NCBI GenBank assembly: GCA_020466095.1
Contig: CM035807.1
Span: 105,958,727-106,022,726, forward strand
Reading direction: 5' to 3'
From: Chlorops oryzae
Taxonomy: Eukaryota; Arthropoda; Insecta; Diptera; Chloropidae
DNA length: 64,000 bases
A model generated the notes under the pieces. That model was not told where the DNA came from and ran no database searches. It saw only the letters and a program-made list of their open reading frames with translations. Of the stretch, positions 3,037 through 63,725 are shown piece by piece. The position numbers and the translations under genes are program-made. The first letter of the stretch is position 1. Each line of letters starts with the position of its first letter.

Positions 3037-3900
3037 AGGGTGTTATAGTCACGCGAGCCTTACCATACAATACCCGACACAAACATGTTTGTTTGAACAT
3101 TTCTTTAAACAGGTCTTTACTCTATTAAAATAGAGATTTTCAAGGCCATTTAGGGCCTCATATTCCGATTTTTGTTCGAATATTTTACGAAAACCACCCG
3201 ATTGCCACGCCCACTTTTCAAATATTGTAAAATTTAATCGTAGCCTAATATATATAAGCTCATATGATAAATTTTTTTAACAGTGTTTCGAGCTTTGTGA
3301 CAGACCCTAGTACCGGAGGTGCCCCTAATAATGGACCGATGAAGAAAATTTTTGAAGGGGGTTTTTATGACTATAGAGGAAGCTTATATGCTAATCTTCG
3401 TTCAAGTCCCATTTGAATTTCGAGTGTAGAAGGTAATTTTCGAAAAACGCCCTTCGGCCACGCCTACTTTTACAATATTTGGAGCTTACTCTAAATGCCC
3501 TTAAATATGCTTGTACATATGTATATCAAATTTCATCAAAATATTTCCAAAAATTCAGGTTTTAGAGAAATTTTTTCGATTTTTATTACAGACCCTAGTA
3601 CTGGAGGTAGTCTCCAAAATTGGTCCGATCGGGTCCATTCTCGAACCTGTTCTTACTCATGTCGCCGTGAGCACGCATACCAAATTTTGTCAAGCTAGCT
3701 CAACTCCTTCGATAAGATAACTGTATACACAGACAGACGGACGGACGACAGACGGACATGTCTAAATCGAATCTCCTGGTGACGCTGATCATTTCCATAT
3801 ACATTTTATATGATCGATCTCGACTGGTTCTGGGTGTTACACACAACAACACAAACGCAATATACCCACGACAGAGAGTGTGTCGGGTATAACAAGTAAG
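3037..3900 (+). mobile_element. dispersed repeat with ATACCCGACAC inverted ends
   Basis: ATACCCGACAC at 3070-3080 is matched by its inverse GTGTCGGGTAT at 3880-3890. The interior carries GACAGACCCTAGTACCGGAGG-type blocks near 3299 and again near 3590. It also has an ACAGACAGACGGACGG run near 3731, followed by a CATGTC...GATCAGCGTCACC-like block in complement. A second copy lies inverted at about 44.43-44.98 kb, and the shared sequence runs outward past the inverted ends to about 3037. The GACAGACGGACATG/GATC signature is widespread in dipteran repeats. No protein is encoded, and the short frames at 3495-3909 are by-products. Confidence 0.7.
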
Positions 3901-4560
3901 CAAGATCAATCGTGTAGTTTGCGTCGTTTTGAAATAGGTTCGTGTTTGTGGTTTCCCCCCGAAAAAGAAAAGTGCTATTGAATCCCCTTTCTCTGAAACT
4001 TACGTCATTGATTGAAATTATTACGTTCCATCGGCTACGTTGAGCTTGCTGTATATGTAAATTATTTCGAATATTGTTGGTGTAATGAAATCTTACTCAG
4101 AATTGTTGCAAGACTCTATGTTTGCTTAATTGTGTATCGTTGGATTTAGTTAATGTGTTAATGAACCCATTAATGAGTGATTCCATTGGCATTCAAGCAA
4201 GTTTTAAGCCAGATAAGTTGTCACCAAATGATCGTGTGCCGAAATGCAAATAATATGAAAACAATCACAATAAATTATGTCAACAAATTTGTTTCAAAAG
4301 AAAAAAGTTTTCGAGTCTGTTGCGTTCAAAAATCTCATCTTACACAGAGTAATACCAATACACAAAAAAATAAAGCGATTGAAATAATAGTCAAAATTCC
4401 GAACTACTTCACTGGGTACTGTCCCGCTTTATGATTCTCTCTAAGATGACTGACGTGGTATGAAGAAAAGATATTTTCAGTCATTTATTAAAATTGTGTA
4501 ATTGCATCGAATACGGGTAAATATGAGTTGGACGAATGAGAGTCGATCTGTTGTTGACAG
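3901..4560. other. upstream region of protease copy 1
   Basis: No gene is visible. The 85-codon plus frame at 4177-4434 matches nothing I know. This stretch probably holds the regulatory DNA of the first protease, but I could not assign a convincing NF-kB or GATA site cluster by eye. Confidence 0.45.
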
Positions 4561-4681: not shown

Positions 4682-6087
4682 ATGTCTTGTTTTCAGATTT
4701 TTTCTATCACAATTTTTATCATAAATTCTTTTTTATCTTCTACGATAGCAAGTGAGCCTTTTAACAATTATTTATTTTCCTTCATAGTTTTATTCAAAAA
4801 AAAAAAAAAAAAAAAACCAAAATATTTTTCAAGGATATGGTGAAAATTGTGTTTTATCAGAGGGTGGTGAAGGCAAGTGTGTTCCCATAAAATCATGTGC
4901 CGGTGCTTTTGAGCTGTTAAAAGATATATACACGCATGGAGAGGAGGAATCAGAAAATGAAATTTCATCCTTGCGGCAAGCGAAATGCGAATCGGATGAT
5001 GAAACAGTGAGCTAAAGCAAAAAAGAAGGACCCCATCGAAAAGACTGAAATTCAAAAATTTTTGTTTCTCTTAAAGCCTTTGATATGCTGCGCCAAGAGT
5101 AATATTCAATTGAATCCCGATGTTTATAATCATTTAAAAAATCTCAACTGTGGCGTGAGCAGTAGCACCAGAATTTCGAAAGGCCAAGAGGCTGGCCTAT
5201 ACGATTTTCGTTGGATGGCATTGCTGAAGTACAATGGAAGGAAGCGGTTCGCTTGTGGTGGAACACTTATCGATAATCAGCATGTTCTAACCGCTGCACA
5301 TTGTCTGCATAACTTTGAAAATTTGCCGTAAGTGCTAGAAAGAGATTTTTTCCAAAAGGATTTCTCTCTTATTACTTGTATGTGCTCATAGGATCGCAGT
5401 TCGCTTGGGTGAATATGATATCTTAAATGATCCTGATTGCTTAAAGCACGGAAAACGCATGAAATGTCTGGATCCCGTGCAAGATATTGGCATTGAAAAG
5501 CACATTATTCACGAGGATTACATATACAAAGGAATTTATGATGATTTAGCCATATTGCGTCTTGAAAGGCCTGTCAACTTTACGAGTAAGTGAAAAAAAT
5601 GCAAGGAAATTTATGGTATAGAAGGAATATTCACCTGAGAGTTTTAATTTTTTTTTTTGTAACAGAAAGCATTCGTCCGCTTTGTCTACCAATTACTAAG
5701 GAGCTTCGGAATGATTTCCCGAAAGAATTCTTTACTGCAGGCTGGGGAGAAACCGAATACGGTAACCGATCGAATGTGCTGCTCTGGACTGCTCTGCCGA
5801 ATCGCACACCGGATGTTTGCGAGAACTCTCTTGGACTTGCATTATCGGAGGAGCATATATGCGCCGGTGGATCAAGATTCCGTGATACATGCAAAGGCGA
5901 TTCGGGAGGTCCCCTCTTTTTCGAAAATATATACGTTGATGGCGTTGCACGAGCAATTCAATATGGGATTGTTAGCTTTGGAGCAAAGAACTGTGGTGAA
6001 ATGAGTTATCCAGCAGTTTATATGAAAGTTTCCCACTACATGCAATGGATAACGGATCATATTAGAGTCTATACGGACTTCATCTAA
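4682..6087 (+). CDS. CLIP-domain serine protease (Grass-like), copy 1
   Basis: Five exons (4682-4751, 4834-5006, 5077-5327, 5392-5585, 5666-6087) encode 369 residues. They comprise a hydrophobic signal peptide (about 1-22), a six-cysteine CLIP domain (Cys29 to Cys85-Cys86), a linker, and an S1 protease beginning after Arg113 (R|ISKG). The triad is His156 (TAAHC), Asp216 (DDLAIL) and Ser309 (GDSGGP). Asp303 in the S1 pocket predicts trypsin-like cleavage. The DxC...KxKC loop at 180-190 and the WMALL, IEKHIIHE and CLPIT blocks resemble Drosophila Grass, a CLIP-B protease acting upstream of Toll. The role is inferred from family: a secreted zymogen in a haemolymph cascade. Introns are GT-AG and 64-82 nt. 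The first acceptor is an unusual AAG behind a poly-A tract. The exon map is a reading by eye guided by three paralogues, and it keeps frame throughout. Confidence 0.93.
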
Positions 6088-9254: not shown

Positions 9255-10956
9255 ATGTTTTGGCTCCAAATCGTTGTGCTTTGCCTTTCAGTGTCGTTCT
9301 CCTTAGCCGGTGAGTGTCTTTTCAGAAAAGTGAAAAAAAAACTCTTCGTAAAAAAAGACAATCAATTTAAAGAAAAAGAAATTAATTTTTTCACCTTCTT
9401 CAGGGTATGGAGAGAATTGTGAAACGCCTTTGGGAGAGCTAGGCACCTGTGTCCCAATTAGATCCTGTGCAGGTGCCTTTGAATTAGAATTGCATATACT
9501 AAGGAATGGAATTGAAAAGTCAAAGGATGAATTGTCGTTTTTTCGTGATTCGATATGTGACTCATCGGGTGAAAAGGTGAGTCGTTAGTTTGGATATGCG
9601 ATGAAAGCTCACTAACTCAGCGTTGAAAAATTTATTCAAATTACTATAGCCCTTAATATGCTGCCAAAATACCAACATTCAAATGAATCCTGTTGTCTAT
9701 AATCATTTGAGTAAATTGAATTGTGGCAGCAGCAGCAGCACTCGTGTCTCAAAGGGTGAAATAGCAGGACCAAAGGAATTCCGTTGGATGGCATTGCTCA
9801 AGTACGAAGGCAAAGAACCATTTGCATGTGGAGGCTCACTTATCGATGATCGACATGTTCTCACTGCCGCACACTGTCTACATAATTATGAGAACCTACC
9901 GTACGTGTCATTAAAAAATAAAAAATTCTAATAATCAGGAAAAAAAAAATACTAATTAAAAAAAAAATCTCAATAGAATCGCAGTTCGTTTGGGTGAATA
10001 CGATATCAATAATAAAACTGATTGCTGGCCTCATGGAAAGTCCATGCGGTGTATGGATCCCGTGCAAGATATTGGCATTGAAAGTTACACCATTCACGAG
10101 GATTACACATACAAAGGGATTTATGACGATGTAGCCATTCTGCGCCTTGAGAGGCCCGTAACCTTCACTAGTAAGTGTTGATCAAACATTCAAAAAAAAA
10201 AATCATTTTCCCATTTTGGCAATTTTTAATTTGATTTATTTTACAGAATTCATTCGTCCGATATGTCTTCCAATTACTAAGGAGCTTCGGTATGATTTCC
10301 CAAAAGAATACTTTTCTGCTGGCTGGGGTGAAACCGAACACGGTAACCGATCGAATGTGCTGCTCTGGACTGCTCTGCCGAATCGCACACCGGATTTTTG
10401 CGAAAACTCACTTGGACTTACACTATCGGAGGAGCATATATGCGCGGGTGGAAATCGATTCCATGACACTTGCAAAGGCGATTCGGGAGGTCCTCTCTTT
10501 TATTCCAAACTATATGTTGATGGCGTTGCACGAGCAATTCAATATGGCGTTGTTAGCTTTGGTGCACGCAATTGTGGTCAAATGAATTATCCAGCTGTTT
10601 ATATGAACATACCCTACTATATGCAATGGATCACCGATCATATGGATGTAGAACATTCTGACAGTCAAAATACAAATCACCGTGAACATCGCAGGCATCA
10701 TGCGAACAGTGTTCACGATCCTCATGCGAAGCCAGACAAAGAAGATAATGCGATCTCTAGTTATGAAGCTTTTCACGATCTTGAATCCACCATTCAGACC
10801 ACAACTTCTACAATCCCCGTAACCTCCACAATTCCCGCAACCTCTGCAACAACGGAGCCCAGTTTTCAAAGTTCTGGAACTAGCATAAAGGGCAACAGTT
10901 TTGCGATAAAAATTCTAATCGCCGTGTTAATGACCTTCTGTTTACGTCGTCCTTGA
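9255..10956 (+). CDS. CLIP-domain serine protease (Grass-like) with mucin-like anchored tail, copy 2
   Basis: Five exons (9255-9309, 9404-9576, 9650-9900, 9977-10170, 10247-10956) encode 460 residues. The signal peptide is about 1-18, followed by a six-Cys CLIP domain and activation at R108|VSKG. The triad is His151 (TAAHC), Asp211 (DDVAIL) and Ser304 (GDSGGP), with a trypsin-type Asp pocket. Exons 2-4 are the same length as in copy 1. The copy differs by about 100 extra residues after ITDHM. These form a His/Asp-rich stretch (near 360-400), then a Thr/Ser/Pro-rich mucin-like stretch (STIPVTSTIPATSATT), then the hydrophobic SFAIKILIAVLMTFCL and a final RRP. This layout fits a GPI-attachment signal or a short membrane anchor, so this copy may act at the cell surface while its neighbours are freely secreted. 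Function is inferred from family; the tail is seen directly. Confidence 0.92.
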
Positions 10957-12442: not shown

Positions 12443-13906
12443 ATGAACTGGAAGAAAATGCCAAAGGTTCAATTGATCAAATTCACGGCTGTGATTTGCC
12501 TTCTGGTACCATCATCATCCTTAGCAAGTGAGTGTGTTTGAATTGTTTTTTTTTTTTTTTTTGTGTGAAAGTTTTTCATATGTAGATCAATCTCTCAGGC
12601 TATGGACAAAATTGTGAAACCCCATTGGCAGAGGAAGGAAGTTGCGTTCCATTAAGGTCCTGTGCAGGTGCTTACGAATTACTACAGAATATTTATAAAT
12701 TTGGTGAAGAGAATTTCAAAAATGAGATCTCATTTCTAAAGGAATCGTCGTGTGATACGAAGGATGAGACGGTATGTTGATAGGGAATGGTACAACAATG
12801 ATTTAATAATCTTCCATATACGTGTGTTTATAGCCTCTTGTCTGCTGCCCACGAGAGAATATTCAAATAAATCCTGAAGTTTACAAACATCTTGCGAGTC
12901 TAAACTGTGGTAATAATGCTGTGCCTAGAGTTTCAAAGGGTCAGGTAGCTCGATTATTCGATTTTCGTTGGATGGCATTGCTCAAGTACGAAGGCAAAGA
13001 ACCTTTCGGTTGTGGTGCATCATTAATTGATGATCGGCATGTTCTAACCGCTGCACATTGTCTGCATAACTTTGAAAATTTGCCGTAAGTGCTCGAGAGA
13101 AAGTTTTTGAAATGGTTTCTCTCTTATTATTTGTATATCCTTATGTATAGTATCGCAGTTCGCTTGGGTGAATATGATCTTCGAAATGAAACGGATTGTT
13201 CGAAACATGGCAGACACATAAAATGCCTTGGCCCAGTACAAGATATTGGCATTGAAAAGTATATCATTCACGAGGATTACATTTACAAAGGCGTTTATCA
13301 TGATCTCGCAATTTTAAGGCTTAAGAGGCCGGTCAACATAACCTCAAGTACGTTGGGAAGATCATTTTAAACAGCTGAAGAGATAATTATTAAAATCAAT
13401 ATTTTTTTTTCCCCCAGAGAGTATACGGCCAATTTGCCTTCCGATTAGTAAAGAGCTGCAAGCAGGTATTCCGCAAGAGTTTTTAGCTGCAGGTTGGGGG
13501 CGAACTGAATTTGGTAGGATTGATTTTGGAGATTTTTCTTTATATGCTGGAAATATGTATAAAAAAACAAACAAACAAATTTTGTATCCCAATAGGAAAT
13601 CGTTCAAATGTCTTACTTTGGACTGCATTATACGAACGTTCGCAAGCATATTGCGAAGAGTTACTTCGACTGAGGCTATCCGAGGAGCACATTTGTGCTG
13701 GTGGCAATCGATTCCATGACACTTGCAAAGGTGATTCGGGTGGTCCGATTTTTTATCCAGACATTTATGTTGATGGCGTTGCTCGGGCAATTCAGTATGG
13801 AATCGTGAGCTTTGGCTCATCGAAATGTGGCCATTTAAATGTTCCGGCTGTTTATACGAATGTTACGCATTATATGCAATGGATAACTGATCATATGGTT
13901 ATCTGA
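12443..13906 (+). CDS. CLIP-domain serine protease (Grass-like), copy 3
   Basis: Six exons (12443-12527, 12599-12771, 12834-13084, 13151-13347, 13418-13513, 13596-13906) encode 370 residues. A basic N-terminus and hydrophobic core form the signal peptide (about 1-28). The six-Cys CLIP domain follows, with activation at R118|VSKG. The triad is His161, Asp221 (YHDLAIL) and Ser315 (GDSGGP), with a trypsin-type Asp pocket. It ends shortly after QWITDH, like copy 1. It has an 82-nt intron (13514-13595) inside the GRTEFG|NRSNV coding block that copies 1 and 2 lack. It also has one extra codon at the end of exon 4. The second in-frame ATG (12458) would shorten the signal peptide by five residues. 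The first was chosen because it is nearest the TATA box and keeps a positively charged n-region. Confidence 0.93.
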
Positions 13907-14045
13907 TGGAGTATTACCAAAGGAAATTTTCTCATTTCTTCAACAATCATTCTTGTAAATAATTCATCTCCGTTTAGTTATAAGCATTATCACGGATTAT
14001 CAAAAAGAACTGCGAAATTATAGTTTAGTTGTAAGAGTTCTCTGT

Positions 14046-14051
14046 AATAAA
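14046..14051 (+). terminator. polyadenylation signal of protease copy 3
   Basis: A canonical AATAAA lies 140 nt after the stop codon, in an AT-rich 3' UTR. No other gene follows on this strand for many kilobases. Confidence 0.6.
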
Positions 14052-14099
14052 TTTTGAAGGCTAATGCCTGAATAGTTGTATAACCAAATGAACTTCGTA

Positions 14100-15120
14100 T
14101 TGTTAATCCATATAAGGGCGATAATGGTAGGGTTTCAGAACAAGCTTACAGAATTTGTTGCAATATTGCTGCATAGAAATCGTTGTGAAATTCAACTAAA
14201 AGATTATTGATCTCGTGTTTTTTTTTTCAATAGTTTTAATACAAGCATACCAATTGGAATTCCTGTTCTAATTGAGATAAATTTTTTTTTAGAATTTTAT
14301 TCCACGCCGAGAATTTCATCAAGTTATTTAAAAGAAAAAGTAATATGATCTCGTGATTGAGAGACTATCGAGTGGGGCAATTAGAGAAACTGTTGGATGC
14401 GAGGCCCAGATAAAGGGGAAGTGAGGCTAATCAATGGGGTGCCCACTTTTTTTTTTTAATAAATCTCAAACACATCAATAGGAAAAGTATGTTATTTATT
14501 CTCTTAATAATTAATTGTGAATAATTTCAAGTTGATCGAGAGGTGCTAATTGGAAATGTATATATATTATTATTCTCAATAGAATAAGTCATATTTAAAT
14601 ATTTGTCAAGCAATCAATTGATCAAAATTCCCTGATCATGAGAAAATTCTAAATAATATACAATTTATTCAAGGAAAATCACGGTGCAGTTAGTTAGACG
14701 ACATAGTGACCAGTATGATTGATGAGACTTGATGAAGAATCTAGGAACTATATGAAGCAAGGTCCTAATATATCGGTAGTGATGCGCTACTCAAGGGTGA
14801 CCACTTTTTCATGATTTTTATAAACATCAGTAAAATGCACATAAGCATAGTCATGTATTCTAACATTATCATCTCAATTTGTCAGATAGCTTCGATATTT
14901 TCTAATTTCTTCTCATTACAAATCAATCTATTCTCTCTCTTTTACTTTCTGTTCTCATCAATATTTTTCTATTTGCTATCATTCTTCATATAACATTCTA
15001 ATCTCATTCTAAGATCTCTATTCATAATATTTCTTCATTCTTCTCAAGTCATGTTTCTGGCGTATTACATCTTCTTACTCTCCTTTACGCTCATTTCTAT
15101 ATCTTCTTAACATTCATGTC
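14100..15120. other. intergenic sequence grading into polypyrimidine block
   Basis: No gene is supported. From about 14870 the sequence becomes steadily richer in CT words (TTCTCATT, ATTCTTC) while still containing A and G. It forms a soft left shoulder to the pure TCTTC block that follows. Confidence 0.5.
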
Positions 15121-16120
15121 TTCTCTCTTTGTTCTTTAGCTTCTCTTCTTCTCATACTCCTTCTTTCTTCTCTCTTGTCTTCTTCATTCTCATATCTTAT
15201 CTTCTCATCTCTTCTTCATTCTTCTCTCTTCTCTTCTCTTCTTCTTTCTTCTTCTCATTCTTTCTTCTATCTCTTCTTAGCATCTATCTCTTTCTTCTCT
15301 TTTCTTCTCTCTCTTTCTCTATCTTCTCTGTCTTCTCTATCTCTTCTCTTTTTCTTCTCTTCTCTTCTCTCACTTCTTTCTTCTCTTCATCTTTCTCATC
15401 TTCTTTCATTCTCTCTTCTTCTCTCTCTCTTCTCTCTTCTCTCTTCTTCTCTTCTTCTCTCTCTCTTCTCTCTTCTTCTTCTTTTCTCTCTTCTTCTTTC
15501 TTTCTCTTCTCTTCTCTTCTTCTCTTTCTCTTCCTCTTCTCTTCTTCTCTTCTCTCTCTTCTCTTCTTCCTCTCTTTCTTCTTCTTCTTCTCTTCTCTCT
15601 CTTCTTCTCTTTCTTCTTCTTCTTCTTTCTCTTCTTCTCTCCTCTTTCTCTCTCTTCTTCTTCTCTCTTCTTCTTTCTTCTCTTCTTCTCTTCTTCTCTT
15701 CTTCTTCTCTCTTCTCTCTTCTTCTTCTCTTCTCTCTTCTCTCTTCTCTCTCTTCTTCTTCCTTCTCTCTCTTCCTTCTCTTCTTCTCTTCTCTCTCTTC
15801 TCTCTTCTTCTTCTTCTCTCTTCTCTTCTTCTCTTCCTCTCTTCTTCTTCCTCTCTTCTTCTCTTCCTTCTTCTTCTCTCTCTTCTCTTCTTCTCTTCTC
15901 TCTTCTTCCTCTCTTCCTTCTTCTTCTTCCTTCTTCTCTTTCCTTCTCTTCTTCTTCCTCTTCTTTCTCTCTCCTATCTTCTCTCTTCCTCCTTCTCTCT
16001 CTTCCTCTTCCTCTCTTCCTTCTCTTCTCTCTTCTCTTGCTCTCTTCCTATCTACCTTCCTCCATCTTCTTTATCGCTTTCTCTCTCTCTATCTTTCTCA
16101 TTCCTTTCTCCTTCCTCGCA
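15121..16120 (+). repeat. 1-kb polypyrimidine (TCTTC/TCT) tract
   Basis: About one kilobase is almost wholly C and T on the plus strand, built from irregular TCTTC, TCTCTT and TTCTTC units. A and G interruptions become rare after about 15430. Such mirror-rich homopurine-homopyrimidine DNA can form intramolecular triplexes. Two overlapping open frames of more than 300 codons run through it but encode only Ser/Leu/Phe and are by-products of the repeat. The right edge is abrupt (near 16100-16135) compared with the left. Confidence 0.9.
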
Positions 16121-16139
16121 CCGTTTTCCTCTAGGCCTA

Positions 16140-18544
16140 CTAAAAAATTTCTTTTTATAGATTTATTTAAAATAATTTTTTTTGATGAATTTGACATTTG
16201 ACAGGTGGAGAAATTTCCCTACTGGGGATTTATTTCACAGCATATTTATATTGAGGAATTCCATGCGATAAGCGAATACGACAAGCTTGTTGATAAAGTC
16301 GCTTACGGTTTTTATGAATGAATGAACTATACTGTATGCCTTTGAAAATTGCCAAGCTGGCTAAAGCGAAGAAAGTAGACTGTTCACGTCATTTGAATAA
16401 TCAGTGACGTTACGTTCGGTTGTAAAAATAACTTGTCGATCAACTCAATAGCGTGCGTTTTCGTTTACGTATTGCCCCAATGTATACAAATTGCTAGCTT
16501 TTTAACGTGAATCAATGGGGAATACCCAATGCAAAAGCTTCAGTTAGTTTGGGAAAAACGTTCACTCGATTTTTTATTTATTTATTTTTTATTCCTTTTA
16601 TGAAAGACAAAATATTTTATTGAAGAAGAGTTTTATTCTTCATCGATTTTTTGATTATGCTTTTTTTTGACTCTTGCGGTTATTGGAATAATTTAGCAAC
16701 CATGCCATAATTCCAAATGCATTTCATCGCGGCTTATGGGATTTACCCATTCGAGGGTACTTCACATTTCCGATAAATTTTTGTACATTTTGTTTTTTTA
16801 TTTTTTAAATATTTTTATTAATAGAAAAAACAAAACACTCTTTCAACATGCTCACAGCAAATATTTCGCTTTCATTGGGCAAATACCCTCATCTGCAATC
16901 AGCCGAGTGTAAATGGAACTCGGCATGAAGTCTAGATTTTTAGTGTAAAATATGAACTGAATAAATTTTATATTGCAATTTATAGCAGAAAATTCCGCAA
17001 AGAACATAGAAACGCAAAACAAGGAGAATGCTCAACAGTGGCAGCAGAAATGTTTTGCATAAAATGTTTTATGCACAACAAAACGAAACGAAACGGAACG
17101 AAATGAAAGGAATTGGAAAAATATACAAAAAGAGTAGAGTAGGCAAAAGAAAAAATAGGGTCGGCAACATTGTCATGAGCAGAACTGCATTGGACATGCT
17201 TTGGGACTACCACTGTGTATAAAGCATATTTTGGGGGAACTTCTGTTCCGGGTGGACGCCCAAAATCCGAGTCAATCCGATGCAACGAAATATGAACATT
17301 TCTTGCCGCTGCTGCTGCTGCTGTGTCTGTAGTTGTACTGTATGAGTTATTGTGCATTTGTATTAGTAATTGAGTATCAGCTTCAAGTGCAGGCAGGCAA
17401 GCTAACGCAATGTCATGAATTATGTTGCACGACATGTTGCATGGACTTCTTGCTGCCCCATTGCATTTTGCTGTGACGTCAATATTTTTCAAGCTAATAA
17501 CTTCAGGGTTACTTAAAGTACAATTGTAGATACACAGACATACGTAAATATGTATGAACATACGTACCCAAAAGAAAAAAAATATCTTTAAGCTTTGCTT
17601 TAAAATTTCCTTCAAGCAAATGAAAATGGACGTTACATACATATGTATGTAATATGTTATTAGAAAAGTTTACTGATTGCATAAGGACTCATCATATTCA
17701 TAAATGCATCTGTGTGTCTATGCGTGTGTTCGACCATGCATAGCAGTCAGGCACGCACTCGCTTGATGCACACATTCGCAATCATGCAAGTCCATTGAAA
17801 ATGTGGTTTCTAAAGTGAATAGCTACCTAATAGACGTGATTATGAATACATATGCCAGCCATGCCAGCTGGATACATTCAAGTGACAATTTTATAACAGT
17901 TTGAGCTTCTTGGTGCCATCCACACGCACATTCTCACATCTCAAGTGTTTAAACTTGTCTTTTACATACATAGCTATCTGCAATGATGTTCGTACATATA
18001 TCTGTTTTTGTCTGTTGTGTATATATGTATATATGTGTCTGCAACGCTTTCAAACATTTCCTTATGTCCCTATGGTGTGTATACCTTGAGCCACTTAGAC
18101 ATGACCTGCCTAGCCCTTGAAGTGTTTATGCGTATATTTCATGGGGAAAAATTTCTTTAAACATTTTTATTACTTGTTCGCTTTACATCCAGTAAGGCAT
18201 TTCGATAGAAAAACATTTTTTTTTGTTTGTTTGTTGACAAGAGTCTCACGCGGAGAAGAGAGAAAAACAGTTCAGCATCAACTTCCCACGCCCCCTAGCC
18301 TACAAGAAATGTTTCAATTATGAAATGTCCTGCTGTTTAAATTCCGTCTTGTCCTTTTGGTTTAACCTTCTAATAACATATTTTTTTTTATAAAAAAAAA
18401 AAAATTAAGACGAATTTGTGGTGGAGAAAAACAAATCTGAAATAATTGTTTATTGTGGTTCGCCGACTGCCACGCCCATAAACATTAATTTTGTTTAACT
18501 TCTGCACGGAAAGGCAAAAAAATATTGCGCCAATATTGTTGGGA
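16140..18544. other. intergenic sequence, no gene supported
   Basis: Contains a short GCT/CTG run near 17308-17322, an AACGA-type pentamer run near 17082-17100 and T-rich runs. A 220-codon minus-strand frame at 16980-17642 is long for AT-rich DNA, but it reads through the CTG run as poly-Ala and shows no family motif. I do not call it a gene. Confidence 0.5.
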
Positions 18545-18549
18545 CGCTG

Positions 18550-19618
18550 CACAGTGGGTTGAATGGGGCCCAAAACGAGGCTTAATTCAACCGAAACGTT
18601 TAAGCGACATTTTAAGATTTTCGTATTTTTATTATTATTGCTTTATTTACTTAAAAAAAAACAAATTTTCAACAATATTTAATTGTTATTTCTTGATGGA
18701 AAAAAAAAAAATTTAATCCTGTACTAATTGGCGTATGAGCAATGTTATTTACAAAACTTTTGTAGGCAGTTGCATTACGTATACGCCGCATACGTCTCAT
18801 ACGAGGAAAGCAATTTAATGCAAAAACCCATAATTTTGATGTGAGTTCTTTCACAAAAACTGTATTTTCTTAAATTCGCGCAAACATGCACAACTTTTTA
18901 TATCGAATTTTAAAACATAAGACTCATAATTTTATATGTTTATAACCACTTTTGCACAATTCGTCCCAATTCACTTTTGAAAGTCTTCATGAAAAATGCT
19001 ATATTTTTAGTATATTAGTGGGATTCAAGCAGGTATGCAATTTTTGCACCCTCGCAAATTTTGCGTTTGTGAAAATTTGTTTGTATGGAAAAAAAATTCC
19101 GCGGCCGGGCAAATATTGCACATCAATTTTGATGGGCAAAATTTGCGCCATGTTATCGCAGAACTTTTGCACTCGTTCTTCGCAGGGTCGTTCATACAAA
19201 AGGGCAAAATTTTCTGGTGCAAAAATTGCACACTTATATTTGCACAGCTGCTTGAATACCACTATTATATTTTGAAAAAAAAAATATTGTACAAACATAA
19301 AAAATTTTTTTTCCCAAACAAAGATAATTACCTTAAATTGAAGCTTCCATGCCGAAATATTTATAAAAAAAATTGTTTTCCTTTTCAAATTTTTTAATGA
19401 AAATGACCAAAAAATACTTTTTTCAAATTCGCGGGAAACGCTCACCAAAAAGTGACTTTTGACATAGCAGTGTTGGGTTAATAAAGAATTCATCAAAAAA
19501 AGTACTGTTTTGTGATGCAGCCATCCACGCTCTTTAACCAGGTACCAAAATCGTTTATTAAAAATCATTTTGATTTTTTGATTTAATCTTTGTTTTGGGG
19601 CCCATTCAACCCACTGTG
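18550..19618. mobile_element. non-autonomous Transib-type transposon 1
   Basis: A 1,069-bp element opens with CACAGTGGGTTGAATGGGGC at 18550. The inverse of this 27-bp terminus closes it at 19592-19618, with 26 of 27 bases matching. Both sides carry the GC-rich 5-bp duplication CGCTG (18545-18549 and 19619-19623). A CACAGTG-like heptamer at the tip plus 5-bp GC-rich duplications is characteristic of Transib, the transposon group related to RAG recombinase. At both ends CCCAAAAC lies 12 bp inside the heptamer. No transposase is encoded. A foldback element is nested inside (19016-19264). The open frames within are non-coding. Confidence 0.85.
19016..19264. mobile_element. foldback MITE nested in Transib element 1
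   Basis: The left arm TAGTGGGATTCAAGCAGG and the right arm, read inward, TAGTGGTATTCAAGCAGC match at 16 of 18 positions. A further inner arm GCAATTTTTGCACC matches GGTGCAAAAATTGC in inverse. The interior is full of GCAAATTTTGC-type palindromic words, so most of the 249 bp can fold back. I found no convincing target-site duplication. It lies wholly inside the larger CACAGTG-ended element, so it either inserted later or is part of that family's body. Confidence 0.6.
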
Positions 19619-19623
19619 CGCTG

Positions 19624-32032: not shown

Positions 32033-32690
32033 CCAGCAACCATTCTGAGAACATTTTGGAGTCATATACGACTCTTTCCGCTCTCATATCTGACTCTTAT
32101 TTCCTTTTAAATATGAGCCATATATGACTCCTATCGCACTCATATCTAACTCTTTTTTCCGCTCAAATAAGAGCCATATATGACTCTTTCCGCACCCATA
32201 TTAGACTTTTTTTCCGATCATATAAGAACCATATGGGACTCTTACCGCACTCATATTTGACTAATTTTTTCACTCAAATAAGAGCCATATATGAATTCTA
32301 TCGCACTCATATTTATGAGTTTAAAAAGACTCAAAAAATTTGGGTGATATTTATAATCGTATGCTGTAAAAAAATTTTTTGATTAATACACACACATTTA
32401 TCGATTTTTACGTATTTATAATTTCAAATATTTTTTTCAATGTTCATATCTCTTCTCTCCTCTTTGGGATTTGAACCTCGGAACTCTCGCTTTCTAGCCA
32501 TGTGCTTACCCATGACACCGAGTTAGCTAAAACGAAGGTCGGGGATCTTTTTCGTTTATAAGTTTAAAGTCAAATTAAAAAAATTTTTTTTTTTTTTCGA
32601 CATATTTCTGATTCATATAGGACTCATAAATACGAGCCCCTTATATTCAACATATTTTAGACTCATTACGGGCTTAAACATACATACCAA
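32033..32690 (-). mobile_element. GAGTC-rich TIR element, copy B
   Basis: Begins CCCAGCAACCATTCTGAG, the family terminus. From 32055 to 32320 there are four or five imperfect tandem units of about 60 bp of the form GAGCCATATATGACTC...CGCACTCATAT. On the minus strand 32525-32462 reads a tRNA-like segment (CGGTGTCATGGGTAAGCAC...GAGTTCCGAGGTTCAAATCCC) with a good box B. The far terminus is not clear near 32690, and the element may be truncated there. Confidence 0.7.
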
Positions 32691-33869
32691 ACAAATATAC
32701 ATAGATATTTAAGTAAAAAACTATTAATTTTCCCGTTTTATGTTCATTCCCTTTGAAAATCAAATCAATCAATCTGCTATGTCATCTAATCCACTCTATT
32801 TCTCTCTTCTCCAAATGCAATGTGTTTAAATGTTGATATTTAATTCAGTTTCCTCCTTTTCTCATTCTTCATTGCAAAAAGTACGCACAGCCGTTAGAAA
32901 AGGGAGTAACAACGAACTTCTTTGTCATGCAAACATATGCATTCCTACTAAAATCTTCAACATGCGAAAAGTACTAAAAATTTCAACACTGAACATACCA
33001 TCGATCAGCTCTCTTTGTTCTTGCCTTGAGGAGCTGTCAGTTTAATTTCGCCATTTATGAGTTCTCGCGTGCTTTTCATACGATGCATTATTTTTCGTGG
33101 AAATATCGGTTAAAACTACGAGGAAGTGAAGAAAATGAGTGTGTAACGTGATTTTCAATACCATCTCCTTCGTTTTTATACAAAGGTTTCAATAGCAAAG
33201 CGATGTATTTAGTAAAAATGAGTGAAAAGAAATATGCGAAAATTATAAGCCTGAAGCAATTGTTAGTGTAATGCGCATTGACAAAATTGACCGAAAACAT
33301 TGAGGTTATGGTTAGAAGGCGCAAACTGCAATTGTCAAATCATCGCATGTTCCATGAATTTTGGCAATGTTTTCGTGAAATCATGCAAATGTGGACAGCT
33401 TTCTTATAAATCGATTTAAATATATGAACAAGTTGAAGAAGAAAGTTACTATTCAAGATAAAATTTAACGAAAAATGTGTTCAAAATAGTTTCTATAGAA
33501 TAAATCACTGGAAATTTTCATGAAAAGGCTTTTTTAAATTAATTAGAAGGAGAATTTGCCTTTTTAAAGCGATATATAAGGTAATTTGTCTATCAAAGAA
33601 GTACAAAAGTACTCTCATCTAAGAGTTTTGTTTCTCTTTTGACAGATTTTGGATACTTGAACGATTTATGACAGTTATTAAGGCTACGAATGCGATTGAC
33701 TCCGAAGAACCGTTTGAAATGTAGCAATTGGTAAGTGCAATGAAATTATAATTTTACTGAACTCTTTTTTTTTATTTGAACATATTACATATACAATGTA
33801 CCTACATATTATACATATTTACATACGATTTACTTATAATTTCAACGATTACACTGAGATTAATGGTGA
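32691..33869. other. spacer between element copies B and C, no gene
   Basis: AT-rich sequence without supported genes. It lies between two partial copies of the same element and could be an insertion that split a single ancestral copy. Confidence 0.4.
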
Positions 33870-34321
33870 TTTGGTTATTTATGAGATTAAAAAGACTCAC
33901 AAATTTTGGGTGATATTTATAATCGTATGCTGTAAAAAAATATATTCATTAATACACACACATTTATCGATTTTTACGTATTTATAATTTCAAATATTTT
34001 TTTCAATGTTCATATCTCTTCTCTCCTCTGTGGGATTTGAACCTCGGAACTCTCGCTTTCTAGTCATGTGCTTACCCATGACACCGAGTTAGCTAAAACG
34101 AAAGTCGGGGATTTTTTTCGTTTATAAGTTTAAAGTCAAATTAAAAAAATTTTTTTTTCTTCGACATATTTCTGATTCATATAGGACTTATAAATACGAG
34201 TCTCCAATTTTCGACAACTCTGACTCATTTAGACTCCTAAATATGAGCATCTTTTTTTCAACATATTTTTGACTCATTTCGGACTCATATTTCGGAGTAC
34301 TCAGAAAATGTTTTCTGGGTA
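33870..34321 (-). mobile_element. GAGTC-rich TIR element, copy C (5' truncated)
   Basis: From about 33880 the sequence repeats copy B almost base for base (TTGGGTGATATTTATAATCG through TCGACATATTTCTGATTC), including the tRNA-like segment at 34027-34092. It then continues into GACTC-rich sequence and ends with GAAAATGTTTTCTGGGT, the inverse of the family terminus. The left GAGTC tandem units are missing. Confidence 0.72.
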
Positions 34322-43164: not shown

Positions 43165-44425
43165 GTTTTGGGAGAATACAAATCAAATTCAAGTGAGTTT
43201 TTGAGGCATTCTGGGTTTACTTATATCCTGCAAAAACACTGGCGATGGAGATCAAGGACGTCTTGTCTAATCCCAAGTCGAGAAAACAAAAGATTTCTGA
43301 TTTCAAAAAAATAAAAAAAAATTTTAACTCAGTTCAAAAGAATGCCCAAAGTCTCCGGAAAAAGCCCGAAAGCAGTGGGAAAAATCCTTCACAAATATTT
43401 TCAACTTAATTTATCCAAAAAAGAAAAATGAATCACGGCATTTGAACACACGCAAACGAGAATGGGAAAGAATGAGCGAAAAGAGATATGTATGAGGGAT
43501 TTGCTGCAGTTATTCCATTGCGATTTGCTTTGCAGAAAGAAGAGTAACGCAACGCTTCTATTCTTATAAGCATTGTGCATTCCCTTTCATATCCGTTTCC
43601 GGTATCCGGTTTCCGTTTCATGCAGTTTGTTGATGTGCATCACTTTCTGCCATTTTCATTATCGAATGCGTTCATTTTTGGATATATTCATGTGTCTTTG
43701 TCTTTTTCCTTCTCTCTCGCTCTCTTTTTACTTCTTTTTTTTTCTTCTCCTTGACTTCCTCTCTGTCCTGATCGTTATCCATCTTTTTTTAGAACGTTTC
43801 GGCGATGTCAGAGTAAACTGCGATTTGATGCGCTTAAACAGATGTTAATGTTCCATGATTTATGTTGGTTTATCAAACGAGTAGCGTTGAAATAATCGAG
43901 AAGCAACGAGGCATCAATGTCGTCGACGATGTGCTTCGTCAGCGGCAGTTAAGGGCACTTCATCGCTGTGGCTACTTTACTGCTATGTTTAGTGCCTAAC
44001 TCTCTCCTCTCTCTCTCTCTCGCTCTCTGTCCGTTTGCCCCAGACATTCAGTGTTAACTGCCATCCACATCAACTGCACTGACGTTTTACGTCAAAAACC
44101 AGCACGGATGGGCTGTGTGAATAGTCGGCAGTCGGAAAGTTGGCAAGCGTTTTATGTTTGGCTTGGCAAAGTCTCTAAGCCAAACTAAATTTGAAGTTGG
44201 ACAAGCCTTCAGCTCGGTTTGAGGCGTAATTTTTAAAAAATTTTTTTTTTTCCATGAGCAAATGTCAAAAGTTGTATGAAAGTCCACATGAATGAGTGCA
44301 ACGACGAGTGGAACAGGGAAAAAGGGAAAGACGAAGATAGAATGGGAATGACCTTACACATATGAGCGGTATTTTATTATCAACTTTTTTTTGTAGCACC
44401 ACGATATTTTAGATAGTTTTGCTAA
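43165..44425. other. intergenic sequence, no gene supported
   Basis: Contains a short CTCTC tract near 44004-44030 only. No gene is supported. Confidence 0.45.
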
Positions 44426-44427
44426 TC

Positions 44428-44985
44428 TTTTTATACTTGACACACTTTGGAACGAGAGTGTATTGCATTTGTGTGGGTGTGTGTTACACCCAGAACCAGT
44501 CGAGGTAGACCATACAAAGTCTATATAGAAACGATCAGCGTCACCAAGGTCCGTCTGTCCGAATCGAAGTCTTATCTTATCGAAGGAGTAAAGCGATCTC
44601 CGCGAAATTTAGTATGCGTGCTCACGGGGACATGAGTAAAAAGTACTGGACCCGATCGGACCCTTATTAAGGGTACCTCCAGTACTAGGGTCTGTTACAA
44701 AACTCAAACAAACCGCTTCAAAATCGGGGCTCCTCAAGATATTTCAGTTTAATCTAGAGTTTGAGCTTATATTTAAGACTCCGATTAAATTTCCTAAAAT
44801 TGGGCGTGGCGGTTATCACAAACAAATGAAAACAAAAATCCGAATATGAGGTCCTTAATACCCTCAAAAATCTCCAGAGTACCTCGTCTTAATGGTAATG
44901 TTTTTGGGGCCTTTTCTAAAAAATCAACCAAACACAGTTTTTTTCGGTATTGTATGGTCTGACTGTAACGCCCTTACTTGTTATT
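44428..44985 (-). mobile_element. second copy of the ATACCCGACAC dispersed repeat
   Basis: Inverted and shorter relative to the copy at 3.0-3.9 kb. ATACTTGACACACT at the left end, CAGAACCAGTCGAGGTAGACC near 44493, TCTTATCTTATCGAAGGAGT near 44570, and CAGTACTAGGGTCTGTTACA near 44680 align in order with the inverse of the first copy. The right end carries CGGTATTGTATGGT...TAACGCCCTTA. It is internally deleted and non-coding. Confidence 0.75.
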
Positions 44986-46744: not shown

Positions 46745-46935
46745 GTCTTTGTGCCGTAGTTGGTTGAAATTCCAACTTACGAAACGAGAGGATCTGGGCT
46801 CAACTCCCAGCTGAGGTCGTGGATGTTTGTGACTTTTATTTTGTGTCGGTTTTTCTTTGTTTTCCCATTATTCGTGGTATCACAATGGGCCCATGCGAGG
46901 CCTTTATGGTGACAGTAATTTCTGGCCATCACAAA
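46745..46935 (+). mobile_element. tRNA-headed SINE, tail shared with the 56.1-kb SINE
   Basis: Box A TGCCGTAGTTGG (46752-46763) and box B GGGCTCAACTCCC (46797-46809) form the head. The 3' part reads CGTGGTATCACAATGGGCCC...GGCC...TGGTGACAG. The same tail (CGTGGTATCACAATGGGCC...GGCC...GTGGCAGCC) occurs on the minus strand in the SINE at 56.1 kb, although the tRNA heads differ. Confidence 0.68.
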
Positions 46936-56108: not shown

Positions 56109-56356
56109 GGTAGGTAGGTAGGTTGAAGTGGCTGCCACTTAGGCCGTTAATCGGCCCATTGTGATACCACGGATGTTTTCTTGTGTTTGTGTGAGTGTAT
56201 GTATGTCTTATTATGTAGTGTGCCCCTAACATGCGATTTTTGAAAAACCAGTGCTAGGCTTGGAACATTACACTCCGTTTCGACTGTGCCGGGAATCGAA
56301 CCTCGGACCCTGGGATCAAGAGCATAGCACGCATCCCCTACGCTATCCCAGAGCCA
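56109..56356 (-). mobile_element. complete tRNA-derived SINE with 14-bp target duplication
   Basis: On the minus strand it begins GGCTCTGGGATAGCGTAGGG (box A) and carries box B GGTTCGATTCC. The body contains an ATCACAATGGGCC tail block. The element ends in a (CCTA)n run. Flanks CGAGCTGAAGAGTA at 56095-56108 and 56357-56370 are identical, a 14-bp duplication expected of LINE-mediated insertion. The unbroken duplication suggests a recent copy. It sits about 300 bp upstream of the MECR-like gene in opposite orientation. Confidence 0.9.
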
Positions 56357-56689
56357 CGAGCTGAAGAGTAAGTTTCTAAAAAAAATAGAACGAAGATGTC
56401 AAATAACTAAGAATTTTCGAACATAATTTGGGAAACCTACAAACAAAGAAAGAGAAAATCGCAAAGGCCGATTCACGCTGTTGAGGTTTATCGATACCAA
56501 GGACAGTTAGTTGCTATCCTTATCGAAATGTCATTGTACATAAACATTTAAAGCACTCTTATAAATAAATTTTCTCTAAAAAATAAAATTAATAAAAAAA
56601 TATTTTAAAAAATATTATAAAAATTCTCAGAAGCGTCAGAAATTTCGACGATAAAAAGCAATGTTTTCAAATCGTTTCAAAATCATAAA

Positions 56690-57769
56690 ATGTTTTCAAA
56701 ACTTTGTACAATCGAGAGCTGCTCCCCTTCTATAAAATCCCTACAGCTCTTTGAGCATGGCGAGCCCACACGAGTACTGCGAATCGAAGAGGAGGAGCTT
56801 CGCGATCCCGAAGATAATGAGGTGATTGTCAAAATGATAGCAGCGCCCATTCATGCAATCGATTTGGATTTTATAACAGGCGAGAAGCCAGCATTATACA
56901 CAACCGATAAGAAATTTCCGCTCGTACCGGGAACCGAGGGTGTTGCCGAAGTAGCCTTTGCCGGAAAGAACGTGAAAGACCTCAAGATTGGCCAACGTGT
57001 TGTCATACCGTTCGCTAATACGATTTCGTCGCGTGGAACGTGGACAAACTACTCAATATATAATGCTCGACATATTATGCCGGTACCGGAGGATATGAAG
57101 ATCAACGATGCAGCCCAATTGGTTATTTATCCTTGTGCGGCATACCGTGTGATGAGAGACTTTGTCACGTTAACGCATGGCGATTGTATATTCTTCAACG
57201 GCGGCAACACTCCAATGGGACTGGCTTTGATTCAACTATGCAGGGCGGAAAATTTCCATTGCGTTTGTGTTGTACGCGAAATAAATAGTTCGGAAAATTC
57301 GAAAAACCATTTGAAGGTTCTCGGCGCCGAAGTTGTTATCTCCGAACCCGATGTCATGACATCGAATGTCTTTGAATCTGGAGAAATTCCGAAACCGCGA
57401 TTGATTGTTAACACTGTGCCACGTGGAAGTTCCAAATTGCTGGGCAAGTTCTTAGATCAGCGTGGCGTTATGGCAACGTATGGCTTTATAGCTGGATATC
57501 CAGCTATAACGGCAACAGCGCCATTAATTTTTCGCGATTTCGTACAGCGTCCCTTCTGGATTGTTAGATACAATGAGAATTTCCCCGAAAAAGCCGAACG
57601 CGAAGCAATGTTCCAGAACCTTTCGAAAATGATACAAGAAGAATTATTGAAATTACGAAAATTGCAATCAGTTCCTTTTCTCGAATACAAAACCGCTTTC
57701 GAAGAACTGGCCAAGCTGGAGGGTAACCGGACATCACAATTCCTACTTGACATGCGAGGTGTAGACTGA
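56690..57769 (+). CDS. diverged mitochondrial enoyl-CoA/ACP reductase-like protein (MECR-like MDR family)
   Basis: A single exon of 359 codons. It aligns by eye along its length with MECR: LQLFEHGEPTRVL (18-30), KMIAAPIHAIDLDFITG (48-64), PLVPGTEGVAEV (77-88), GTW (116-118), YPCAAYRVMRDF (147-158), FFNGGNTPMGLALIQL (168-183) and CVVRE (193-197). MECR performs the NADPH-dependent last step of mitochondrial fatty acid synthesis. Two key sites differ. The segment normally reading QGNYG, with the catalytic Tyr, reads TGEKPALY. The cofactor loop SGVG reads TPMG. Activity may therefore be changed or lost. No stops or frameshifts occur in the body, which favours a constrained gene. An overlapping upstream ATG frame (56661) reads a basic, presequence-like peptide but stops after 24 codons. 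A retrocopy origin is possible but not shown. Confidence 0.85.
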   Translation: MFSKLCTIESCSPSIKSLQLFEHGEPTRVLRIEEEELRDPEDNEVIVKMIAAPIHAIDLDFITGEKPALYTTDKKFPLVPGTEGVAEVAFAGKNVKDLKIGQRVVIPFANTISSRGTWTNYSIYNARHIMPVPEDMKINDAAQLVIYPCAAYRVMRDFVTLTHGDCIFFNGGNTPMGLALIQLCRAENFHCVCVVREINSSENSKNHLKVLGAEVVISEPDVMTSNVFESGEIPKPRLIVNTVPRGSSKLLGKFLDQRGVMATYGFIAGYPAITATAPLIFRDFVQRPFWIVRYNENFPEKAEREAMFQNLSKMIQEELLKLRKLQSVPFLEYKTAFEELAKLEGNRTSQFLLDMRGVD

Positions 57770-62688: not shown

Positions 62689-62693
62689 CGCTG

Positions 62694-63720
62694 CACAGTG
62701 AGATTTCAGCGGCAAAAATAGGATTTTTTGACCATCGTAATTTTATGATTTGTCGATTTAATCTAACAAAGAAACCTCTAGATAAGAAAAATTCAAAACT
62801 GTTTTTTCAAAAAACATAATTTTTTTATATAAAAAATTAAGCTAAAGATAGAAAATGTTTTTTCTTCGAAAAATTGAAAAAAAAAAATTCGAATTGGTTC
62901 CCATTTTTTTCGGATTTAAATCTACCACTGTTGCTATAAAAGTGATTTTTTATTAAAATTTAGAGTTTGATATTTAAAAGGAATTAAAAATTATGGCATT
63001 TTATTGAATATCGAAGAGGAGGTGGGCTATCAAAAATTCTACCTCGAAAATGACGCCTTTCCTTTTTTCAATGGACAAAAAGTTTATATGCTTTGTCGTG
63101 CTTTGTCTTCTAGTTGATAAAAAATAAAAGTCTGGAGTCTGTTCTAACGATCTATGAAAAAAAAATTACCGCCCACTTACGATTGTCTCGATAAAGTCCA
63201 TTTTTATGTTAAAAATCACCGGGAAAATGTCTGGATATTAAGAAAAAAATCATTGCATATGTTAAGGATGATCAGTATTCATTAACGCTTTATTATAATT
63301 TCTGATGGCAATGTTTATAAGAAATTAAGAACTAACTAAGAAATTACAAAAACAAAACATTATATTAAAATTTTTGTTTTGTGAGAACATACGAAACTAT
63401 GATGCAATTTATACTGAAAAGGCTGTTATCCAGGAAGTACCCCTAGGGACTGTCAATGAACCTTTTTTGTATATATTCGTTTTTGAGTATAAACAACATT
63501 CTGACCAAGTTTCATTAAAATCGGTTGAGTTTTAGATGTAGCTGCCATACAAAACTGCATGTAGGGGTCTATGGGCCGGTACCCGAAGGGTTGAACCGAT
63601 TTCGATAAATTTTAGTTTGTATCTTAATGACCTCAATTTACACCCGCATACCAATTTTCATTATGATAGGACTATTCCTTCTATTTTTTGCCGCACGATG
63701 TATGGAGCAATCCCACTGTG
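62694..63720. mobile_element. non-autonomous Transib-type transposon 2 with 12/23-spaced termini
   Basis: A 1,027-bp element opens with CACAGTGAGATT and closes with the inverse of CACAGTGGGATT. CGCTG flanks both sides (62689-62693 and 63721-63725). Inside the left heptamer, 12 bp (62701-62712) precede CAAAAATAG. Inside the right heptamer, 23 bp (63691-63713, read inward) precede CAAAAAATAG. Both A-rich motifs are preceded by GCGG. This heptamer, 12/23 spacer and A-rich nonamer layout is that of RAG recombination signals, known to descend from Transib termini. No transposase is encoded, so it would need a source in trans. Confidence 0.85.
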
Positions 63721-63725
63721 CGCTG

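Follow-up and report, generated by a model that had tools for sequence, protein, structure and literature searches.

The segment at positions 62694-63720 of the DNA analysed here (64,000 nucleotides in all, referred to below as the window) is very probably a non-autonomous cut-and-paste transposon of the Transib type. The element (E1) opens with the heptamer CACAGTG and closes with its reverse complement, and a directly repeated CGCTG adjoins it at each end. Its A-rich block, GCGG-CAAAAA(A)TAG, occurs twice, 12 bp in from the left heptamer and 23 bp in from the right heptamer.

Anatomy and coding content of the element

The element and its parts, in the order in which they lie, are:

62694..63720, + strand: element E1, 1027 bp, G+C 30%, apparently non-autonomous (sequence, heptamer-pair scan and Pfam scan)
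62689..62693, + strand: left target-site duplication, CGCTG (direct sequence)
62694..62700, + strand: left heptamer, CACAGTG (direct sequence)
62701..62712, + strand: left 12-bp spacer, AGATTTCAGCGG, last bases GCGG (direct sequence)
62713..62721, + strand: left A-rich block, CAAAAATAG (sequence and end comparison)
63681..63690, - strand: right A-rich block, CAAAAAATAG (sequence and end comparison)
63691..63713, - strand: right 23-bp spacer, GGATTGCTCCATACATCGTGCGG, last bases GCGG (direct sequence)
63714..63720, - strand: right heptamer, CACAGTG (direct sequence)
63721..63725, + strand: right target-site duplication, CGCTG (direct sequence)

When flank lengths from 3 to 12 bp were compared, only 5 bp matched, exactly and on both sides, which upholds the use that an earlier note on this DNA had made of the CGCTG duplication to confirm the ends. 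Read inward, the two ends are identical at 11 of their first 12 positions (CACAGTG-R-GATT), and their match extends over just these 12 bp, with one mismatch, ahead of an 11-bp offset. Beyond it, GCGGCAAAAA is common to both ends as a run of 10 identical bases that recurs at a lag of 11 bp, and GCGG closes both spacers. The bases that had been quoted for the ends are thus all present in their places, and the description of a single motif set at two distances 11 bp (one helical turn) apart, with the flank GCGG in common, is borne out. An imperfect inverted repeat was also seen by eye near the right end, at 63480-63640, around AAATCGGTTGAG / GTTGAACCGATTTCG.

Among the 28 reading frames listed for E1, stop to stop, none exceeds 75 amino acids. 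Pfam returned no match at E up to 1 for the 10 of these 28 that were scanned, which include most of the longer ones, and no Transib transposase (a relative of the RAG1 core) was recognised in them. The RAG1L and RAG2L gene pair, the mark of a RAG-like (RAGL) transposon, is likewise absent from E1, where no frame is long enough to pass 75 amino acids.

A second element and the Transib assignment

A listing of every CACNNTG in the window (76 sites, both strands) yielded a second element, E2, which serves here for comparison:

18550..19618, + strand: element E2, 1069 bp, heptamer CACAGTG at both ends, symmetric ends
18545..18549, + strand: left target-site duplication of E2, CGCTG (direct sequence)
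18550..18590, + strand: left terminal inverted repeat of E2, 41 bp, with 88% identity to its right counterpart (end comparison)
19578..19618, - strand: right terminal inverted repeat of E2 (end comparison)
19619..19623, + strand: right target-site duplication of E2, CGCTG (direct sequence)

As in E1, the duplication is exactly 5 bp and reads CGCTG. The probability that two sites taken at random from the window have the same 5-mer is 0.002, and CGCTG accounts for 0.75% of the window pentamers with at least four G or C. Because random sharing is this rare, the pentamer common to both elements suggests a common target preference. A reading of E2 as another copy of E1 was rejected, as BLAST of E1 against the window gave no match to E2 at E up to 0.1. 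Within E2 lies an inverted repeat of 30 bp (19011-19040 and 19240-19269, 87%); its arms are of the type GTGG-ATTCAAGCAG, and it may represent a smaller mobile element lodged within E2.

Could CACAGTG sites and short repeats have come together here by coincidence, with no transposon involved? In favour of this, the heptamer is commoner in the window than expected (9 occurrences against 3.29). A scan was made for CACNNTG...CANNGTG pairs within 8 kb of each other, with at most two differences between the heptamers and identical 5-bp flanks; it returned 3 rows, whereas 60 sequences simulated with a first-order model averaged 0.23. Pairs of CACAGTG/CACAGTG with matching 5-bp flanks and less than 3 kb apart number 2 in the window, and the mean over the same 60 simulations is 0.0. 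This excess shows that the ends of E1 and E2 are real, and a coincidence is considered extremely improbable.

One row of the scan, 13054-19618, was rejected as an element: it joins a CACATTG in duplicated protease-gene DNA to the right end of E2 and is probably spurious. A further copy of this CACATTG lies at 5297, likewise within the duplicated protease DNA. This trypsin-type serine protease region is present in three diverged copies (5071-6062, 9397-10645 and 12591-13898), pieces of which are 73-82% identical, and Pfam Trypsin was found in frame 10162-10953, the one protease frame tested.

Other features of the window include an uninterrupted frame at 56687-57769 that resembles mitochondrial enoyl-ACP/CoA reductase. 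It gave 7 protein matches at 22-31% identity and, in a comparison with solved sequences, matched 52, with mitochondrial enoyl reductases at the top, which points to a eukaryotic host and to nothing narrower. One tRNA was found by the Rfam and tRNA scans. A dispersed repeat has inverted copies at 3571-3903 and 44419-44712, about 80% identical, and 32059-34282 holds tandem repeats of 56/111 bp together with a 327-bp direct copy at 96%. The 19 bases CGTGGTATCACAATGGGCC occur twice, at 46873-46891 (+ strand) and 56153-56171 (- strand), in surroundings that otherwise differ; they are possibly the ends of another repeat.

No further copy of the outer end of E1 was found within 2 substitutions in the 64,000-nucleotide window. 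Exact searches gave 0 matches for the E1 end patterns in the viral and prokaryotic contig collections and 0 for those of E2 in the viral collection; such misses say little.

Ends beginning with CAC occur beyond Transib, and no transposase was identified in E1, as might be expected if the element came from some other cut-and-paste superfamily with ends of this kind. This origin appears improbable in view of the exact 5-bp G+C-rich duplication in both E1 and E2, of a heptamer that in both equals the RSS consensus, and of the usual length of Transib and RAG duplications, which is 5 bp (PMC7204232, in excerpt). G+C-biased 5-bp duplications are described for Transib, RAG and RAG-like insertions alike (excerpts of PMC7204232 and PMC8289069), and the RSS heptamer consensus is given as CACAGTG in the latter, as the earlier note had said of the heptamer of E1.

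The Transib type is thus supported by the CAC heptamer, by the exact 5-bp G+C-rich duplication and by a second element with matching heptamer and pentamer. The two features that mark Transib insertions, a terminal RSS-like heptamer beginning with CAC and a G+C-rich target-site duplication of 5 bp, are present at both ends of E1 and of E2 (CACAGTG and CGCTG, respectively), and both elements fit non-autonomous Transib-type elements. Since no transposase was found, we infer membership of E1 in Transib by descent from its anatomy; the earlier assignment to a Transib-type element holds for that anatomy, and its genealogical part stays putative.

If the Transib assignment is correct, E1 would be moved in trans by a Transib transposase encoded elsewhere in the genome. 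The enzyme would recognise the terminal CACAGTG together with the next bases, RGATT, and would probably also bind the subterminal A-rich block. Cleavage would begin with a nick at the first C of the heptamer (the heptamer border) and, if the enzyme acts as Hztransib and RAG do, proceed through a hairpin formed on the flank, leaving blunt transposon ends. Both ends would then be joined 5 bp apart into the G+C-rich target CGCTG, with the 5-bp duplication as the outcome.

Spacing of the A-rich blocks

The spacers of 12 and 23 bp in E1 are counted up to the C of the A-rich block, and on this count the RSS-like 12/23 spacing proposed earlier stands. However, the C is the second base of the RSS nonamer, ACAAAAACC, so that the best spacers against it are 11 on the left and 22 on the right, where each end agrees at 6/9 positions; agreement drops to 4/9 with a spacer of exactly 12 and to 5/9 with one of exactly 23. 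Judged as V(D)J signals, which would need ACAAAAACC at one of these two exact spacers, the ends of E1 do not qualify. The ends of both elements were also scored against AAAAAAATC, which we take to be the Transib consensus. By this measure the highest score of the right end of E1 is 7/9, at exactly 23, and that of the left end 6/9, at both 11 and 13. As the excerpted text of PMC8355894 allows asymmetric Transibs spacers that deviate from 12 or 23 by up to 1 bp, E1 fits their description, with the two spacings at opposite ends, in one copy. The 11-bp displacement of one A-rich block relative to the other is independent of the register chosen.

The ends of E2 are 12/12-like: each has CCCAAAAC 12 bp from its heptamer, scoring 6/9. 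Its right end contains additional 6/9 matches of A-rich sequence at spacers of 18, 30 and 31, and its left end one at 33; the right end also reaches 8/9 against the presumed consensus AAAAAAATC at 31; nonamer-like matches are therefore easy to find in such DNA. E2 is an element with Transib-type hallmarks inserted in this genome without the 12/23 asymmetry.

How much of the spacing in E1 could be expected by chance? All four ends (4/4) of E1 and E2 have, at a spacer of 11-13 or 22-24, a block that scores 6/9 or better against the nonamer; they are not four independent events, the two ends of one element being related. The same holds for 4/72 other CACNNTG sites (both strands) and for 0/5 other CACAGTG sites. 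The joint pattern, with such a block at 11-13 on one side and at 22-24 on the other, arose in 1333 of 200000 random pairs. The 12/23 reading of E1 is thus modestly better than chance, with one copy behind it.

Functional asymmetry, on the one hand, and an insertion, a deletion or chance placement, on the other, are about equally good accounts of the 11-bp offset. In the second account the ends are of Transib type and their 12/23 look is accidental, left by an 11-bp insertion on the right, a deletion on the left or a chance placement of A-runs. We give it slightly less than an even chance; it opposes the functional reading of the spacing only, and its probability is not to be added to that of the Transib assignment. 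An accident would agree with the single copy of E1, with its composition (70% A+T), with a best RSS register of 11/22 and with the symmetry of the neighbouring E2. In addition, an alignment as good as the one over the shared A-rich block is reached by 460 of 50000 pairs of 40-bp stretches drawn at random from the window, and in 45 of 20000 letter shuffles; this match is not overwhelming, and the block is less certain than the ends of the element. Against an accident, the shared block takes in the G+C-rich GCGG plus C, as 10 identical bases at a lag of 11, and several dipteran Transibs are reported to be 12/23-asymmetric (PMC8355894, in excerpt). The spacers of RSS-resembling Transib ends are, for their part, of various lengths according to the portion of PMC6941560 cited here.

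Significance and comparison with known systems

Going by the naming rule, TransibN1, N2 and N3 of Anopheles gambiae are non-autonomous. These three, with Transib2 of the same species and Transib5 of Drosophila melanogaster, are given as having 12/23-asymmetric ends in the excerpted part of PMC8355894, which credits Kapitonov and Jurka (2005). Compared by description only, they resemble E1 in having an RSS-like heptamer and nonamer spaced, to within 1 bp, by 12 and by 23 at the two ends; E1 differs in being known from a single copy and in having no known autonomous partner. Because 12/23-asymmetric Transibs are already in print, the novelty claimed for the arrangement is unsupported; it is likely a further case of a published kind and not the first. 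The direct bearing on the origin of the V(D)J 12/23 rule with which the earlier note had credited it was overstated, given these fly and mosquito cases and the symmetry of E2.

One copy of an arrangement credited to a paper of 2005 changes little at present. If the spacing proved fixed in a family, E1 would be an independent addition to the few 12/23-asymmetric Transibs, which underlie the idea of a 12/23 rule that came down from a transposon and did not arise with RAG2. Its neighbour E2, symmetric but alike in heptamer and target, would make a natural control. That a single genome holds a Transib family with fixed 12/23-like ends (E1) beside a 12/12-like symmetric family (E2), both inserting into CGCTG, is a tentative and rather unlikely proposition. 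If true, a comparison of the E1 and E2 transposases could tell what in a relative of RAG1 sets the 12/23 preference without RAG2.

Most Transib families have symmetric ends (PMC8289069, in excerpt). Hztransib of Helicoverpa zea is flanked by GCTCG and measures 3518 bp, with a deduced transposase of 489 amino acids (PMC1852546, in excerpt); hairpin cleavage is described for it (excerpt of PMC6941560), and its ends are symmetric, with little or no similarity to the nonamer (excerpt of PMC8289069). It shares with E1 the ends like the RSS heptamer and the 5-bp G+C-rich duplication. Differently from Hztransib, with its own transposase and symmetric ends, E1 has no frame above 75 amino acids and carries offset A-rich blocks.

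The 12RSS and 23RSS of V(D)J recombination have a heptamer identical to that of E1, CACAGTG, and in E1, as in the two signals, the distances of the A-rich block differ by one helical turn. The nonamer match of E1 is 6/9 at 11/22, and E1 ends lie in a transposon, whereas an RSS lies in a split receptor gene. The amphioxus ProtoRAG has spacers of 27/31 bp (PMC8289069, in excerpt) and, unlike E1, encodes RAG1- and RAG2-like proteins; what the two elements have in common is a pair of asymmetric two-part ends and a duplication of 5 bp.
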